In this document: piece after piece, positions 1 to 40,573 of the stretch
Numbering within the stretch: position 1 is the first letter of the stretch
How the letters are laid out: each line of letters starts with the position of its first letter
From: Comamonadaceae bacterium
GTDB taxonomy: Bacteria > Pseudomonadota > Gammaproteobacteria > Burkholderiales > Burkholderiaceae_C
Length of the DNA: 40,676 bases
Direction: 5' to 3'
NCBI GenBank assembly: GCA_030602185.1
Contig: JAUWAE010000005.1
Span: 1-40,676 of the forward strand
Position numbers and translations under genes: made by a program
The notes under the pieces: generated by a model
What the model was told of the DNA's origin: nothing
Database searches by the model: none
What the model saw: the letters and a program-made list of their open reading frames with translations, nothing else

Positions 1-238
1 GGTTGCCAACCGCGCCCATCGACACCCTCGCCCTGGACCGGCTGGTCACCTGCCACACCCTGGGCGGCGCCCCCCGCCCCGCACTGCAGGCCGACCGCCT
101 GCACGGCATGCTCACGGGCTACATCGACCTGGTGTTCGAACACGGCGGCCGCTACTACGTGGCCGATTACAAGTCCAACTGGCTGGGCCCCCACGGCAGC
201 GCCTACACCACCGAGGCCCTGCGCCAGGCGGTGGTGAG
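1..238 (+). pseudogene. recB: RecB nuclease-domain fragment, inverted relative to the rest of recB
   Basis: Read on the plus strand from base 3, this translates as the start of the RecB C-terminal nuclease domain. Visible are the GYIDLVF block (first catalytic Asp), then YYVADYKSNWLG (second catalytic Asp and Lys), then [13 protein letters not shown]. In RecB proteins this block follows the helicase region on the same strand, but here the helicase region is on the minus strand and stops at the same place. After about base 238 the frame becomes antisense to recB and carries no protein homology I recognise. Base 1 is already inside the domain, so the fragment is cut by the window edge. The switch lies in GGCGGTGGTGAGCC (about 227-240). 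It could be a real small inversion or a chimeric contig end. The identity of the domain is clear; the cause of the inversion is not. Confidence 0.8.
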
Positions 239-3200
239 CCAGCCGTGCAGCCAGGAGGTGAGCGGGTCTATCCAGTGGGCCCAGTCGCTCGCCTGGCAGC
301 GCCGGGCGACCTGGTCGCGCAGGCCCGTGGGGTCGTGGGCCACGGCCGCGAAGCCTTGCTGGGCGCACCATTCGAGCAGGTCGTGCAGCAGCGTGCCGGC
401 CGAGGCGCCGCGCGGGAAGGCGTGCGGGCTGTCGGGCTCGGGCCGACCATCGGCAGGTGCGTCGGTCGGGCTGGTGCCCGTGATTTCCCGCAGGCGGTCC
501 TGCAAAAGCGTGTCGGGGGCGTCTGCGGCCGTTTGGTCGGGTGCTGCGGTGGCTTCATCGGCGATGCGCAGGGCCGAATAGCTGGCAATCCACCAGCGGG
601 GGCGAGGCTGACCCCGGTAGGTCCGGCACTGGCCGCGGGTGGGGGCTTCGGCCGGGGCTTCCCAGCGCTCGGTGGTGGGCATGGGCGCCGCGGTGACGGT
701 GCCAGTGGGGCCGGCGAGGCGTTCGGCGAGCGGGGTGGGCCAGTCGTGCAGCGCGATGGGTTGGCCCGCACCGATCAGGTAGCCCAGGGCGCTGCGGTGC
801 AGGTCGTCCAGCGGCGCCACGCCGACCCAGGTCGCGTGGCGGGCCCGGGTGAGTGCCACGTAGAGCTTGCGCAGGTCTTCGCCCAGGCGCTCGGCATCGG
901 CCTGCTGGGCGGCCCGCGCACGCTCGTCGGCGCTGCCGCCCAGGGTCAGGCGGGCACGGCCCTCGGTGTCGTGCCAGCGCAGCACCGTCTGGTCGGGTTC
1001 CACCGGCCGGTGGTGGGTGGCGAAGGGGTAGAACACCAGCGGGTACTCCAGCCCCTTGGATTTGTGGACGGTGATGACCTGGACCCGGTCGGCGTCGCTT
1101 TCGAGCCGGATCTGGGGGGCGTCGCCGCTGCGCCCGAGTGCGGCGAGGCGTCGCTCCTCGGCCAAGTGGCGCACCAGGGCGTGCTCGCCGTCCAGCACGG
1201 TGCTGGCGTCCTGCAGCAGCTCGGCGAGGTGGAGCAGGTCGGTGAGGGTGCGCTCGCCTTCGGCCGCTGCGTCCGCGGCCAGCAGCCGGGCGGGCACGTC
1301 AAAGTCGTGCAGCAGTTCGCGCAGCATGGGCAGCACACCGCGCTGGCGCCAGGTGCTGTGGTAGCGGCGGAAGCGCAGCACGGCGGTGTCCCAGGCGTCT
1401 TCGTCGTGGCGCATGCGGTCCAGGGTGGCCCAGTCGAGGGCCAGCACGGCGGTGCCGAGCGCGGCGCGCAGGGCGCGCGGGTCGTCGGGCTGGGCGCAGG
1501 CTTGCAGCCAGTGCTGCAGGTCCTCGGCCACCGCGCTGCGGTAAACCGACTCGCGGTCCGACAGGTAGACGCTGCGCACCCCCCGATGGGCCAGCGCGGC
1601 CCGGATGGCGTCGGCTTCGCGGCGGCTGTTGACCAGCACGGCCATGTCGGATGGCCGCAGTGCGCGCCAGTGGGGCGGGCTGCCCTCGGTGGCAAAGCCG
1701 GCCGTTGGGCGTTGCAGCAGGCCAACCATTTCGGTGGCGCAGGCCTCGGCCATCTGCCGCAGGGCGGCGTCGCGGCCCAGGGGCTTGCCCTCGGGGGCGG
1801 GCAGGTGCCACAGCGTGAGTGGGCCAACCGGGCTGGGCGCCTCGGGACCGTCGGGGCACCAGCGGGTGCGTGGCCCGGCCGCCTGGGCAGGCTCGAACGG
1901 GACCGGGTTGTCGCCCGCCGGGTTGCGGAAACCGAAGGCGCCCTGGCCCGCCGCGCGGGTTTCGGCCTGTTGGAAGCAGTGGTTCACTGCGGCGACCAGG
2001 GCAGCGTCGGAGCGGAAGTTGGTGTCCAGCGTGTACAGGCGGCCGGCGCAGGCGCGGCGGGCCTGCAGGTAGGTGTAGATGTCGGCCCCACGGAAAGCGT
2101 AAATGGCCTGTTTGGGGTCGCCGATGAGCACCAGCCCGGTTTCGGGGGCGGGCTCGGCCACGTGGTAGACGCGGTCGAAGATGCGGTACTGGACCGGGTC
2201 GGTGTCCTGGAATTCGTCGATCAGGGCGACCGGGAACTGCTGGCGCAGGGTGGCGGCCAGCGCCTCGCCCGCCGGGCCGTGCAGGGCGTGGTCGAGCCGC
2301 TGCAGCACGTCGTCAAAGCCGAGTTGGGCACGGCGGGCCTGGGCTTGCTGGAAGCGCTGCTGCACCCAGCGCGCGGCATGTTGCAGCAGGCTGGAATGGG
2401 CGTTGGGCAGGGCGGCCAGAGCGCCCGGCAAGGCGGCCAGCGCATGCAGGGCGGGGTGGTCGGGGCAGTCGGCCGGGTCGAGGTACACCTCGGCCAGCCC
2501 TGTGGGGGTCAGCCGCTCCCAGCCGGTGTTGAGTGCGGGGGGCTCCTTTGCGTCGGGGTCGATGGCCCAGGCGTGCAGCCGGTCCAGCCAGGGGCCGTAA
2601 TACTGGGGGCGAAACTTGCGGCCGTTGACCCGCTTGGCATCGGCCTCGAAGCGCTCGCGCAGCTCGGCCACCCAGGCGGGCCAGGGCGCCTTGAGCTCGG
2701 CCAGGGCGGCCTGGCGCTGGTCCAGGGCACTCTGCAGCAGGGCCTGGGGCGGCGGGGTGTCGACGGGCAGGTCGGCGGTGTGGGGCAGCAGGTCGCGCAC
2801 GGCGCGCAGCAGGTCGTCGGGGCCGCGCCACCAGCGCAGCACCTCGCGCGCCAAGCCCTCGGGCAGCGGGGCATAAAAGGTGCGCCAGGCGTCGCGTGCC
2901 ACCTCGGCCAGCAGTTCGCTGGGGTCGGTTTCCAGGGTCTGCCGGAACAGGGTGTTGCCGTCGAAGGCGTGCTCGCGCAGCATGCGCAGGCACCACCCGT
3001 GGATGGTGGCGATTGCGGCCTGATCCATCCACTCCGCGGCGAGTTGCAGCCGGCTGGCGAGGCGCGGCCAGTCGTCGGCAGGGTAGTCGGCCCGCAGCTG
3101 GTAGAGGGCCTGCAGGTCGCCAGCGGCATCGGGTGGGGTGGCGGGGGCGCGGAACACTTCGGCGGCTTGGGCCAGGCGGCGGCGGATGCGGGTGCGCAGC

Positions 3201-3415
3201 TCCTGGGTGGCGGCTTCGGTGAAGGTCACGACGAGGATGTCGGGCGGCAGCAGGGCGCGTGCAAAGCCGTTTGGATCGTCTGCGGCGCGTGGGCCGAGCA
3301 CCAGCCGCACGTACAGCATGGCGATGGTCCAGGTCTTGCCGGTGCCGGCGCTGGCCTCGATGAGGCGGCTGCCGTGCAGGGGGAAGGTGCGGACGTCCAG
3401 GCGGGGCGTGCTCAT
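203..3415 (-). CDS. recB: RecB, exodeoxyribonuclease V beta subunit (helicase part; C-terminus lost at inversion junction)
   Basis: RecB is the 3'-5' helicase and nuclease subunit of RecBCD, which processes double-strand ends for recombination. Helicase motifs are in order: Walker A ASAGTGKT (residues 21-28), DEFQDTD (Walker B), [29 protein letters not shown] and LYVALTRAR. The ATG at 3415 overlaps the recC stop (ATGA), and the following residues match a normal RecB N-terminus; the longer open frame upstream lies over recC. Native sequence runs to about GWLTTA near base 230. The frame then crosses into the inverted nuclease segment, adds WRRASVV and stops at 203, giving about 1070 residues instead of roughly 1200. 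As assembled the protein would lack its nuclease domain. recD would be expected further left, outside the window. Confidence 0.88.
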
Positions 3416-6400
3416 GCCTGCCCCTCTTTCGGCGTGCTGCGCCGGCTGACCGGGATGGCTTGCCACAGCGGGCGCAGCAGCTGTTCGGTCCAGTGGCGGA
3501 AGGGGCTGGCCTCGTGGGCCAACTCGGGTGGGCCGAGCAGGTCGCGCGCCGTGGGGTAGGCGCGGCGCAAATAGGGGTTGTGCGCCCATTCGCCGCCGCC
3601 GCCCGCAGGGGCCAGCGCGTCGTGGGCGGCCTGCCAGGCACGCGCGGCGTCGTCGGGCGCGCGGCCCTGGGCCCGCAGCCACGCGAAACCGGCTTTGGCC
3701 GACAGGGGCAGCGGTGCCTGCATGCCGTACTGCCATGCCTCCAGCAGCGCCTGCCAATGCCTGGTCGCCTCGGCCAGCGGCAGCGCCGCGAGTGTGATTT
3801 CCCCCGCATGGCTGAGGATGCGGGTGGTCATGGGGCCGACCGCCAGGTGACCGGCCAGGTGCGCCACCCAGTGCGCAATGACGCGGTGGGGTCGGTACTG
3901 CTGGGAGCGGCCATCGGTGAGCGCGCTGACTTCCAGCACGACGCGGCCGGTTTCGCCAGCGGTGTTGTGGCGCAGGTCGTCGAGCCGGTCCAGCACGGCC
4001 ACGGGTAGGCCGCTGGCCATGCCTGCCCAGTCCAGTGTGGCGCTGAAGGTGTCTGGCCAGTCGGCCAGGGCCTGCGCGTAGGTGGCCAGCAGGTCGGGCA
4101 GCGGCTCGGCCAGCGACTCCCGTTGCGCCTGGCCAAATCCCCCGGCGGCAAGTTCACCACGGCGCTGCATGGCATCCAGCCGTGCCGACAGCCGTTGCGA
4201 CAGGTGGGCCGGCGACGCTTCGCCGCGGGGGACTGCCTGGGCCAGGTCCTGCAGCAGCTCGCGGTGCAGCCGCCAGCGGTCCAGCCCGTCCAGGTCGAAC
4301 GGTTCGTGTTCGGCCAGTGTCGGGTCGTCCAGGGCCAGCGTCACGCCGAGCCGGCGCCGAAAGAACGCTTTCACCGGGTCTTGCAGGAATTCGGTGAGCT
4401 CGGCCAGCGTGAGGGGTTCTTCGCGGGCCAGGGGCGGCAGGGGGGTGGTCGAGGTGGTAGCCGGTGCCCCCGGGCGGCGCCATTCGTGGGCGTAGGTGAA
4501 CCAGGGGGTATCCCCGGCGGGTGTGTGGTGGGTGCCGAAGTACGCAGGGCTGAAGGGCTGCAGCCGGTGCTCGGTGGTGAGTGCGGCCAGCAGGTCGCCA
4601 CCCCCGTCGAGCCGCCAGCCGCTGGCCAGATGGTCGCGCAGCTGGTGGATCAGCACCGAGGGCGCGCGCTCGGTGTTGTCGGTGATGCTGCGCCCGACCC
4701 ACGAGACGTAAAGCCGTTCGCGCGCCGACAGCAGGGCTTCGAGCAGCATGTAGTGGTCGTCGCTGCGGCGCGAGCGGTCGCCAGGCCGGTAGTGGCGCGC
4801 CATGAAGTCGAAATCCTGCGGTGTGTGCGGGCGTGGGTAGGCGCCGTCGTTCATGCCCAGCAGGCACACGTGCCGGAACGGGATGGCTCGCATCGGCATG
4901 AGGGTGGCGAAGGTGACGGCGCCGCCAAAGAAGCGCTGCGACAGGTTTGGGGTTTCGGCCGCGTTCAGCCAGTGGTCGGCGGCCACCGCCAGGGGCAGGG
5001 GGCTGTGGAGCCGGGCCTCCTCGCAGATGGCCTGCCACTGTTCCAGCGCGCCGTCGAGCCGCAGCAGGGTGAGTGCGTCGCGGCTGGCGCGTTCCGGGTC
5101 GTCGGGCGTGGCCGGGTCGAAAAAGGCCCGCAGCAGGGCCCGGAAGCGATCGCACCAGTCGGGCACGGTGGCGGGGGTGGACAACGTGTGCCAGGCGTGC
5201 TCCAGCGCGTCGAGCAGTTGCACCAGCGAGCCCAGCAGGGTGGCTTCAAGGCCGCCCACTTCGTCGTACGGCTCGATCCCCTGCCAGGCACCGCCGGCTG
5301 GCCCCACCGCGTAGCCCAGGAGCATGCGGCGCAGGCCGAAGCGCCAGGTGTGGGGGGCTTCAGGATCTGGCGGCTCGGGCAGGTCGAGGCCGGCGCGGTG
5401 GGCCGCGTGCAGGCCCCAGCGGACATTGGCACCGCGGATCCAGCGCTGCAGCCAGGGCAGGTCGGCAGCGGAGATGCCGAAACGCTGGGCCAGCGCGGGC
5501 ACGTCCAGCAGGTCGAGCAGTTCGCTGGCGCTCAGTCGCGCCTGGGGCAGGCCCAGCAAGGTGCGCAGCGCCTTGAGCAGTGGGTCGGTGGCCTGCTGGC
5601 CCTGGTCCACCACCCGGAAGGGCAGGTGACGCGGGTCGTCGGCACCACGCCGGCCGAACACCGCCTGCACGGCGGCTGCGTAGCCGGCGATGTCGGGCAC
5701 CATGACGATGACATCACGGGGCTGCAGGGTCGGGTCGGCCTCGAAGGCGGCCAGCAGCTGGTCGTGCAGCACCTCCACCTCGCGCTGGGGGCTGTGTGCG
5801 ATGTGGAACCGTACCGAGGCGTCGGCCGCAGGCTGGACCGGCGGCCAGACGTCGCGCGTCTCGTGCAGCGGCCGCAGCTCCAGGATGTCGTCCTGCAGTT
5901 GCTGCAGCAAGGTGGTGGTGCCCGGCGAGGTGAACAGCTCGGTGGCGCGGCCGATGGCCTGGAATCCGCGCTGGTGCCGGGCCAGGGTGGCCGCGTCGTC
6001 GTGCTCGGCCAGCAGGCCGATGAAGTCTCGCCCCTGCTTGCCCCAGGCCGCCAGCAGGGGGTGGGCGTGCTGGTGTAGCTGCTCGGGGTCGATCGAGGCG
6101 GGTGTGCCTGGCCGGCGCGCCTGCCGCCCACGGCCCTGGTGCAGGCTGCGCAGCAGGTCGTGGTCGGACACGATGTCGGCCCAGTGGTGGCGGCAGGGGT
6201 TGTGCACACACACCAGCACCTGGCACCACTGCGCCAGCGCGGCCAGTACTTCCAGGGATTGCCGCGGCAGTGCTGAGATGCCGAACACGATGAGCCGGCG
6301 CGGCAGGTCCTGTGGCTGCTCGGGCGGACGGCCCTGCTGCACCTGCGCCAGGAACGCGTCGTGCACCGCCGCCCGGCCAGGGCGCGGGCCCGCGGCGGCT

Positions 6401-7026
6401 GCGTCCTGCGCCACGTCGGCCAGCAGGGCGCGCCACAGCGCCGGTTGCCACTCCTGCCCCGCGGGCAGGGGGCGTGGCTGGTCCCGGGCGTCGAGCAGCA
6501 CGTCTTGGCCTTGCGCCCAGGCCCGCAGCCAGTCGGCCCGGTAGACTTGGTATTGGTCGTAGAGGTCGGCCAGGCGTTCGGCCAGTTGGTGGCGGCGCCG
6601 GCCGTCGAGGTCGTTGTCGAGGTAGCGGCGCAGCGGCGCGTAAGCCGGCTCGTGGCCGCAATCCTCCAGCAGCCGTACCAGCCGCCAGAGCAACCGCGGT
6701 TTGTCGAATGGGGACTGTTCCGGCACCTGGGCCGGACCCAGCACGGCCCGGTAGGCTTGCCACAGGAACTGCGAGGGCAGCTGGAGGTCCAGCGCGGCAG
6801 CAATGCCACAACCGCCGGCGGCCACGGGCTCGGCCAGCGACAGCTTCAGCCATTGCGCCATGCCGTTGCTCTGCACCAGCACGGTCTCGTTTTCCAGCGG
6901 GGCGAGCGGGTAGCGGCCGATCCAGGCGACCACCAGGTCGCGCAGTGCCTCGGCCTGGTTGCCGTGCACCACGATCAAGCCCGTCGCCCATTCCGGTGGG
7001 CGGTCCGTCTCCCTGCTGCGGTTCAT
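3412..7026 (-). CDS. recC: RecC, exodeoxyribonuclease V gamma subunit
   Basis: RecC is the Chi-recognition subunit of RecBCD and holds the complex together; it is a helicase-like fold without active ATPase motifs. The 1204-residue product starts with a normal RecC N-terminal block (VHGNQAEALRDLVVAWI, then QSNGMAQWLKLSLAE and DLQLPSQFLWQAYRAVLG). It also contains HIAHSPQREVEVLHDQLL, PFRVVDQG and LPMRAIPFRHVCLLGMNDG (the last preceded by Met), all typical of the family. It is slightly longer than the E. coli protein (about 1120 residues). Its stop overlaps the recB start by 4 bases, so the two are translationally coupled. The ATG at 7026 is preceded by only about 43 bases before ggt, which lies upstream on the same strand. 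Confidence 0.93.
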   Translation of the reverse strand: MNRSRETDRPPEWATGLIVVHGNQAEALRDLVVAWIGRYPLAPLENETVLVQSNGMAQWLKLSLAEPVAAGGCGIAAALDLQLPSQFLWQAYRAVLGPAQVPEQSPFDKPRLLWRLVRLLEDCGHEPAYAPLRRYLDNDLDGRRRHQLAERLADLYDQYQVYRADWLRAWAQGQDVLLDARDQPRPLPAGQEWQPALWRALLADVAQDAAAAGPRPGRAAVHDAFLAQVQQGRPPEQPQDLPRRLIVFGISALPRQSLEVLAALAQWCQVLVCVHNPCRHHWADIVSDHDLLRSLHQGRGRQARRPGTPASIDPEQLHQHAHPLLAAWGKQGRDFIGLLAEHDDAATLARHQRGFQAIGRATELFTSPGTTTLLQQLQDDILELRPLHETRDVWPPVQPAADASVRFHIAHSPQREVEVLHDQLLAAFEADPTLQPRDVIVMVPDIAGYAAAVQAVFGRRGADDPRHLPFRVVDQGQQATDPLLKALRTLLGLPQARLSASELLDLLDVPALAQRFGISAADLPWLQRWIRGANVRWGLHAAHRAGLDLPEPPDPEAPHTWRFGLRRMLLGYAVGPAGGAWQGIEPYDEVGGLEATLLGSLVQLLDALEHAWHTLSTPATVPDWCDRFRALLRAFFDPATPDDPERASRDALTLLRLDGALEQWQAICEEARLHSPLPLAVAADHWLNAAETPNLSQRFFGGAVTFATLMPMRAIPFRHVCLLGMNDGAYPRPHTPQDFDFMARHYRPGDRSRRSDDHYMLLEALLSARERLYVSWVGRSITDNTERAPSVLIHQLRDHLASGWRLDGGGDLLAALTTEHRLQPFSPAYFGTHHTPAGDTPWFTYAHEWRRPGAPATTSTTPLPPLAREEPLTLAELTEFLQDPVKAFFRRRLGVTLALDDPTLAEHEPFDLDGLDRWRLHRELLQDLAQAVPRGEASPAHLSQRLSARLDAMQRRGELAAGGFGQAQRESLAEPLPDLLATYAQALADWPDTFSATLDWAGMASGLPVAVLDRLDDLRHNTAGETGRVVLEVSALTDGRSQQYRPHRVIAHWVAHLAGHLAVGPMTTRILSHAGEITLAALPLAEATRHWQALLEAWQYGMQAPLPLSAKAGFAWLRAQGRAPDDAARAWQAAHDALAPAGGGGEWAHNPYLRRAYPTARDLLGPPELAHEASPFRHWTEQLLRPLWQAIPVSRRSTPKEGQA

Positions 7027-38963: not shown

Positions 38964-39362
38964 TCAGTTTTGACTACTCCAGTGGCCGTCAAAGTCAAAA
39001 GAAAGCTGGCGGTGGTGCTTGATCGACAGCAGAAACAGCGTGTCACCAGCCTGCATGTACAGCACCAGGAATTGCGCCATAACGTACTCACGCAAAGAGG
39101 CTGTGGAGCCCCAGCCGACCGCAGCCAGCTTGTTTTGCAAGGCTGCGAGGGCGTTGGTAGCTTCCGCTGAACCAACCGCACGGTTGAAGAACGGTCGGCC
39201 AAGTGCTGGGAACCGTTCCAAGTTGGGCAACACCGTGCCCAACAACTCATCGAGCAAATCGTCGAAGGCATGTGGCGCCTCGGCCTCCAGTAAGAACTGC
39301 TCAATCTCTGCAAGGTTGCGCTCGAAGTTGGCGGTGAGCTTCGCGGTGATGCGACTGGTCAT
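38964..39362 (-). CDS. RelE/ParE-family toxin-like protein
   Basis: The 132-residue product is encoded directly after a Phd/YefM-like antitoxin. Features fitting RelE/ParE toxins are an N-terminal helix pair (LTANFERNLAEIEQFLLEAE, then DDLLDELLGTVLPNLERFP) and a beta-rich C-terminal end (YVMAQFLVLYMQAGDTLFLL, then SIKHHRQLSFDF). RelE toxins are mRNA interferases and ParE toxins poison gyrase; this sequence does not tell which. It is longer than most family members (about 90-100 residues). The start ATG is 25 bases after the antitoxin stop. Toxin identity rests on size, fold-like pattern and pairing, so confidence is moderate. Confidence 0.72.
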   Translation of the reverse strand: MTSRITAKLTANFERNLAEIEQFLLEAEAPHAFDDLLDELLGTVLPNLERFPALGRPFFNRAVGSAEATNALAALQNKLAAVGWGSTASLREYVMAQFLVLYMQAGDTLFLLSIKHHRQLSFDFDGHWSSQN

Positions 39363-39387
39363 CGGGTAGCCAATCTGTCGATGGCGA

Positions 39388-39678
39388 TCAAGCGGCCCGA
39401 CGCTTCTTCATGGCCGTCAGCGCTGCACGGGCATCCTGAACCCGTCCAGCCGCCACGTCATCCAGACCCTTGGATGCCTCGTCAATCAACAGCAAGTGGA
39501 TGCGCTCACGCTCCAGCTGGTGGTAATAGTCCAGGCGCTTGGCGTCGATCAGGGCAATGATCGCTTCCCCGTTCTTGGTGATGATTTTTTCAGCCCCGCC
39601 TCTGACTTCATCGGCCAGCTCAGAAAAGTTGGCGCGAGCCTGTGAAAGGGGAATCACGTCGCTGGCTGAAATTGCCAT
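39388..39678 (-). CDS. Phd/YefM-family antitoxin
   Basis: The 96-residue protein has the family N-terminal DNA-binding block: VIPLSQARANFSELADEVRG, then AEKIITKNGEAIIALIDAKR, ending near LDYYHQLE. The C-terminal part is helical and basic at the end (MKKRRAA) and would wrap the toxin. GGAGG (39683-39687) precedes the ATG. The family represses its own operon, so an operator is expected in 39679-39740, where TGTACA and GTTG/CAAC inverted elements are visible. It is the first gene of the toxin-antitoxin pair. Confidence 0.85.
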   Translation of the reverse strand: MAISASDVIPLSQARANFSELADEVRGGAEKIITKNGEAIIALIDAKRLDYYHQLERERIHLLLIDEASKGLDDVAAGRVQDARAALTAMKKRRAA

Positions 39679-40573
39679 GTGGCCTCCGGATGTTGCGGGT
39701 GGTGCAAGATTTTGTACATTTTATGCGTTGTGCAACCGAAAGTGGCACGGCACTGGTGTCGAGCAGGGCGGTGTGTTCATTGGCCTGGCTGATGCCGTCG
39801 CTGTTGGCGTCTTGCCACACGCGCAGGCTGGCCCAGTTGGCGTCCTGGTTGTTGACGAGGCCGTCGCCGTTGGTGTCCTCTTGCGCCAGGGCGTCGAAAC
39901 CATCCACGGCTTTGCGCACAACGTTGCCGTCAGCGTCGAACACGGGGGTGCTGTCGCCGAAGAGTTCGGTGCCGTCGTTGATGAGGCCGTCGCCGTTGCG
40001 GTCGAGCACCAGGAAGCCGTCGTCGGGCTGGATCCAGCCAGTAGCGTTCTTGACGCCGTCGCCGTCATGGTCGAAGAGGATGGGGTTGGCGGCGTTGATG
40101 CCCACTGTCTCCAGGCCGTCACCGTCCAGGTCCAGGGTCAGCGGGTCGCGGCGTTGGACCCATGTTTGAGCATTTCCATAGCGCCCCGTTACCAAATCAA
40201 AAACTGGATCAAGATATCCATTCCTACTAATCCAGTCACGAAGTTCTTTCAGCCCCCACTCAGCAAGATTCCCGAGCCCAAAATCTCTAAGATTTTTTTG
40301 AGCGACCTGATCTTTCAAATACTCCTCAAACGCCTTATTTTTTCTTAGAGAATCAAAGACTCTATCAAGCCCCGTCTTGGTGACAGCTTTATCAATAAAC
40401 CAAAGAGGTATACCGATCCCCACAGCCTCAGCCAATTTTGTTGCGGCATCGTATGCCGCTTGCTCCCTCTTGGCCGGGTCTGTGGCATTTTGCACAATTT
40501 CCGCGGCCTCCACAACCTGCTTGATTTTGTCGATAATCCATACAACCGACCCAGCTTTCTGCAACACACTCAT
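39620..40573 (-). pseudogene. Truncated calcium-binding-repeat (RTX/EF-hand-like) protein
   Basis: The 317-residue frame begins at ATG 40573 (GGAGG upstream) with an amphipathic region and a GIGIPLWFI segment. Five acidic loops follow: DLDGDG (148-153), DHDGDG (168-173), DRNGDG (191-196), DTNGDG (233-238) and DANSDG (255-260). This pattern is common at the front of large secreted RTX-like proteins, which usually continue for hundreds more residues. Here homology ends near residue 280 (about 39730) and the frame runs 59 bases into the antitoxin gene, ending in sequence that is the antitoxin promoter read through. The first half (40170-40573) is visibly AT-richer than the rest of the window, a sign of transfer. 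I read it as a remnant cut off by the toxin-antitoxin region. Confidence 0.7.

Follow-up and report, generated by a model that had tools for sequence, protein, structure and literature searches.

Lasken and Stockwell (2007; PMC1855051) studied the chimeras of an amplified E. coli cell; according to the available text, 406 of the 475 were inverted, the two joined segments tended to come from within 10 kb of each other, and the 3' end had primed at complementary bases, at least 2 and up to 21 of them, in 76.8% of cases. The accessible part of PMC8458033 describes single strands that anneal via short reverse-complementary stretches and so give rise to library-preparation chimeras of adjacent sequence. 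Searches of the literature for misassembly in connection with contig ends and for small inversions each returned no paper. At the locus considered here recB changes strand close to base 1 of a contig, and this strand switch is very probably a chimeric contig end rather than a genuine feature of the gene or a genetic switch.

The two parts of recB and the contig that carries them

The window, that is the whole stretch of DNA that was analysed (40,676 bases), is the complete contig C255 (G000:C255), so its base 1 is a contig end. It belongs to a fragmented assembly (333 contigs, 2.80 Mb) that is estimated to be 90.7% complete and 2.9% contaminated. Two parts of one recB lie on opposite strands of the contig (Table 1), as an earlier note on this DNA had claimed, and the switch between them is far beyond chance. 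On the minus strand, 206-3415 is RecB and matches positions 2 to 1003 of TIGR00609, where the match stops; its score of 766.4 bits exceeds the family cut-off (696.05), and the UvrD-type helicase families PF00580 and PF13361 are matched as well. As assembled, the minus-strand frame continues into the inverted piece, where it meets a stop codon at 203-205; recC and the helicase part of recB together have more than 2,200 uninterrupted codons. On the plus strand, 3-236 matches positions 1036-1106 of the 1175 in TIGR00609 (E 8.9e-22), and 3-233 aligns without gaps to residues 1030-1101 of E. coli RecB (1w36_B; E 7.2e-15), which places the D, D and K of this piece at E. coli residues 1067, 1080 and 1082, which we take to be catalytic (Asp, Asp, Lys). 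The nuclease core of RecB is thus present, on the strand opposite to the helicase part instead of in the same strand and frame, and in the searchable part of the genome the nuclease piece occurs in one copy, the window's own. The earlier note had the nuclease-domain segment inverted against the helicase segment. The LLH motif, whose His is invariant in a seven-sequence alignment (H1011 in the numbering of the minus frame) and is presumably the catalytic His956 of E. coli RecB, remains on the minus strand, so the cut falls inside the nuclease domain and not at its border.

Table 1. Features of the recBC region as assembled (positions are those of the window).
Feature	Position	Strand	Basis or remark
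RecB nuclease core fragment (Asp, Asp, Lys), terminal piece of the contig	1..233	+	inverted relative to the remainder of recB
Joint, 4 nt (GGTG) found on the nuclease side and, reverse-complemented, on the helicase side	230..233		residues and codons of relatives
recB, helicase part with the beginning of the nuclease domain, up to and including ...GWLTT	230..3415	-	profile matches, relatives
recC, directly upstream of recB	3412..7026	-	profile matches

Two observations concern the other end of the contig. A ParE-like toxin gene (PF05016, 24.7 bits, cut-off 23) and an adjoining Phd/YefM-type antitoxin gene (PF02604, 38.8 bits, cut-off 29.8) at 38964-39678 on the minus strand are likely to form a type II toxin-antitoxin pair, judging by their family matches. 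Near the right contig end, a 317-aa frame (39620-40573, minus) contains Asp/Gly-rich stretches such as LDLDGDGLET, and a Pfam search with it at E 0.001 gave no match.

Arrangement in relatives and the missing 3' end

Relative loci were obtained with the seven-sequence alignment as query, and the best 80 of 583 confirmed loci were kept; a contig search with the window's RecB alone as query returned no relative. The nuclease core lies on the helicase strand in 79 of these best 80 of 583 loci and on the opposite strand in none. One open frame spans both pieces in 78 of the 79, the exception (L161) having a stop, and the one remaining locus (L192) has no nuclease match, its contig ending before the nuclease. 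In a second set of relatives, both pieces are collinear on one strand in 8 of the 8 in which both were found, so the alignment with the recB of relatives, which the earlier note had proposed as a check, gave collinear genes in both sets. Among 137 recB matches outside the window's own genome, 132 have open frames of at least 1,200 aa and five are shorter (G153, G357, G176, G325 and G108), the short frames of G153 and G357 running off contig ends. Frame length alone is no proof of collinearity in GC-rich DNA, and it is therefore the two strand comparisons that carry the argument. Most likely, the native recB is a single collinear gene on the minus strand, with recD after it.

Relative to these loci, about 78 nt are absent between the two pieces in the window (median; range 72-153; 55 of the best 80 of 583 loci, namely those whose helicase alignment reaches residue 1050), and the C-terminal residues absent from the window number 80 (median; range 69-100; 79 of the best 80 of 583 loci). 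Directly 3' of recB, 10 of 10 relatives examined have an open frame that resembles recD and contains a Walker motif, and in seven of these ten, all of those searched (7/7), recD protein search matches fall at that place. In the window recC is present upstream, and recD would sit just past the contig end. Family and protein searches of the searchable part of the window's own assembly did not find recD, the same protein query being positive in 7 of 7 relatives. The RecB C-terminus (about 80 codons) was likewise not found there with the sequence of one relative, a query without a positive control. All ten of the assembly's contigs below 3 kb in our sample read as N, so the organism may nevertheless have recD and the RecB C-terminus.

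The joint and its origin

The residues that relatives carry at the joint define how many bases its two sides share. After the last matching nuclease codon, Leu follows in 9 of the 9 relatives shown (best 80 of 583 loci) and, in a second alignment of relatives, in 8 of 10, the other two having Ala. After the helicase-side end, Pro follows in 9 of 9 relatives shown (best 80 of 583 loci) and in 7 of the 9 sequences of the second alignment that cover the place, where L053 has Arg and L056 has Ala. Native Leu and Pro would leave an overlap of exactly GGTG (230-233, 4 nt), and native Ala on both sides would allow it to reach 227-234 (8 nt). The 14 nt of inverted homology that had earlier been read at this place shrink to that length, being mostly the joint itself read from both sides. 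When joints between these two stretches are drawn at random, 2.9% share four or more bases, which makes the 4-nt joint only mildly unlikely by chance, and priming by short complementarity at the joint is plausible. The only listed inverted pair with an arm at the joint is 99-115 / 234-250 (17 nt, 88% complementary); the arm at 99-115 belongs to the inverted piece, and in native order the pair is a direct repeat that codes for LHGMLT and LHGWLT. No second junction of an inversion was found within the contig, which stops about 78 nt short of where that boundary should lie.

The position of base 1 at a contig end, the inverted piece of only 233 bases and the fact that 0 of the 79 assessable loci (best 80 of 583) look alike all argue for a chimeric contig end, as do the homology of 4 to about 8 nt at the joint and the lack of a second junction, and the earlier note was right to put an artefact first. 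The second segment is inverted and about 310 nt away, about 78 nt are skipped, and the joint has short complementary bases (4 nt, GGTG, possibly up to 8). In the available text of PMC1855051, amplification or library chimeras have this signature: a nearby segment in inverted order, a stretch left out, and a few complementary bases where the two parts meet. A strand ending ...GGCTCACCACC-3' may, in the course of amplification or library preparation, have paired over about 4 complementary bases with a single strand close by, some 310 nt away in the onward direction, and may have been extended backwards, which would invert the nearby segment and skip about 78 nt. A chimeric read or fragment of this kind would then lengthen the contig by 233 bases, and the assembly would stop there. 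The strand switch and its geometry are plain from the contig, and the 233 bases past the joint would correspond roughly to what one read or insert can span; the exact step could have been multiple displacement amplification, end repair or PCR template switching, or the assembler. It speaks against this reading that rare chimeric reads are normally dropped by assemblers, so that the native path here must have had poor coverage.

A real inversion of about 310 bases in recB, fixed or switching, in the organism or in part of its population, would yield a RecB that has lost the catalytic Asp and Lys of its nuclease and keeps its helicase. Its origin could be a polymerase that switched template between very short inverted stretches; according to the available text of PMC8604942, spacers can become inverted when the template is switched between inverted repeats. 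The joint is clean and both pieces come from the only recB found in the searchable genome, both of which would suit such an event, yet we consider it very unlikely: the second boundary is absent from the sequence, the contig stopping about 78 nt before its expected place, the joint shares just 4 to about 8 nt, and the arrangement is seen in 0 of the 79 assessable relative loci (best 80 of 583). Apart from the contig itself, nothing supports the in vivo inversion that the earlier note had considered, with the RecB nuclease disabled and the helicase intact, and the cut runs through the nuclease domain. If it were true, an inversion that toggles the RecB nuclease would represent a new means of adjusting double-strand break repair and phage defence; as an artefact, the switch matters little.

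Decay of recBCD, in which recB and recD are being lost in the lineage and the rearrangement is one pseudogene lesion, would account for the failure to find recD in the window's own assembly with a query that was positive in 7 of 7 relatives, and for the RecB C-terminus not being found there (with the query that lacked a positive control). We give this explanation hardly any credence, since recC and the helicase part of recB remain open over their more than 2,200 codons, and since recD is expected just past the contig end and could be hidden in small contigs, those sampled below 3 kb all reading as N. A programmed, phase-variable segment that toggles the RecB nuclease on and off has the orientation switch itself in its favour and nothing else, and it is almost certainly not what the contig records, as the two sides of the one joint in view have just 4 to about 8 nt in common, the pair 99-115 / 234-250 has one arm inside the inverted piece and is natively a direct repeat, and the arrangement occurs in 0 of the 79 assessable relative loci (best 80 of 583). 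The other bracket of such a segment, like its second boundary, would fall off the contig.

Fold-backs elsewhere in the assembly were sought by an inverted-repeat scan of 40 of its contigs (every eighth number from C8 to C320), of which ten read as all N and two were covered to 20 kb only, so that 297 kb were readable. With arms within 3 kb, these 297 kb held one perfect inverted repeat of at least 20 nt and none of at least 30 nt, compared with 15 and 6, respectively, many of them from one locus, in 300 kb of the single-contig relative G004. Fold-backs are not in excess in the sampled contigs, which lends no support to a generally chimeric assembly; to chimeras like that of the window, which leave no inverted repeat, the scan is blind. 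A nearly perfect inverted repeat of about 38 nt lies close to the contig start at 114-326 of L081 (G000:C152). A codon-usage strand caller for contig ends, intended to reveal further fold-backs, was dropped, as it identified the correct frame for just 288 of the 600 pieces on which it was tried.

With the strand switch read as a chimeric contig end, the terminal 233 bases of the contig should stay unannotated, and a RecB call made from this end would falsely look nuclease-dead.

Comparison with described systems

As in RecB of the family TIGR00609, both pieces of the window are ordinary RecB sequence and recC lies upstream; the window as assembled differs in that the wrong strand carries the C-terminal piece and in that it lacks about 80 residues at the C-terminus. 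The chimeric reads from library preparation in the accessible part of PMC8458033 likewise involve short reverse-complementary stretches at neighbouring genomic positions, but they come from formalin-fixed samples mapped to the human genome. For the multiple displacement amplification chimeras of PMC1855051, as far as its available text describes them, the window's joint is known from a contig instead of from reads and the sample need not have been amplified in this way, whereas the likeness extends to the nearby inverted segment, the intervening deletion and the few complementary bases at the joint.
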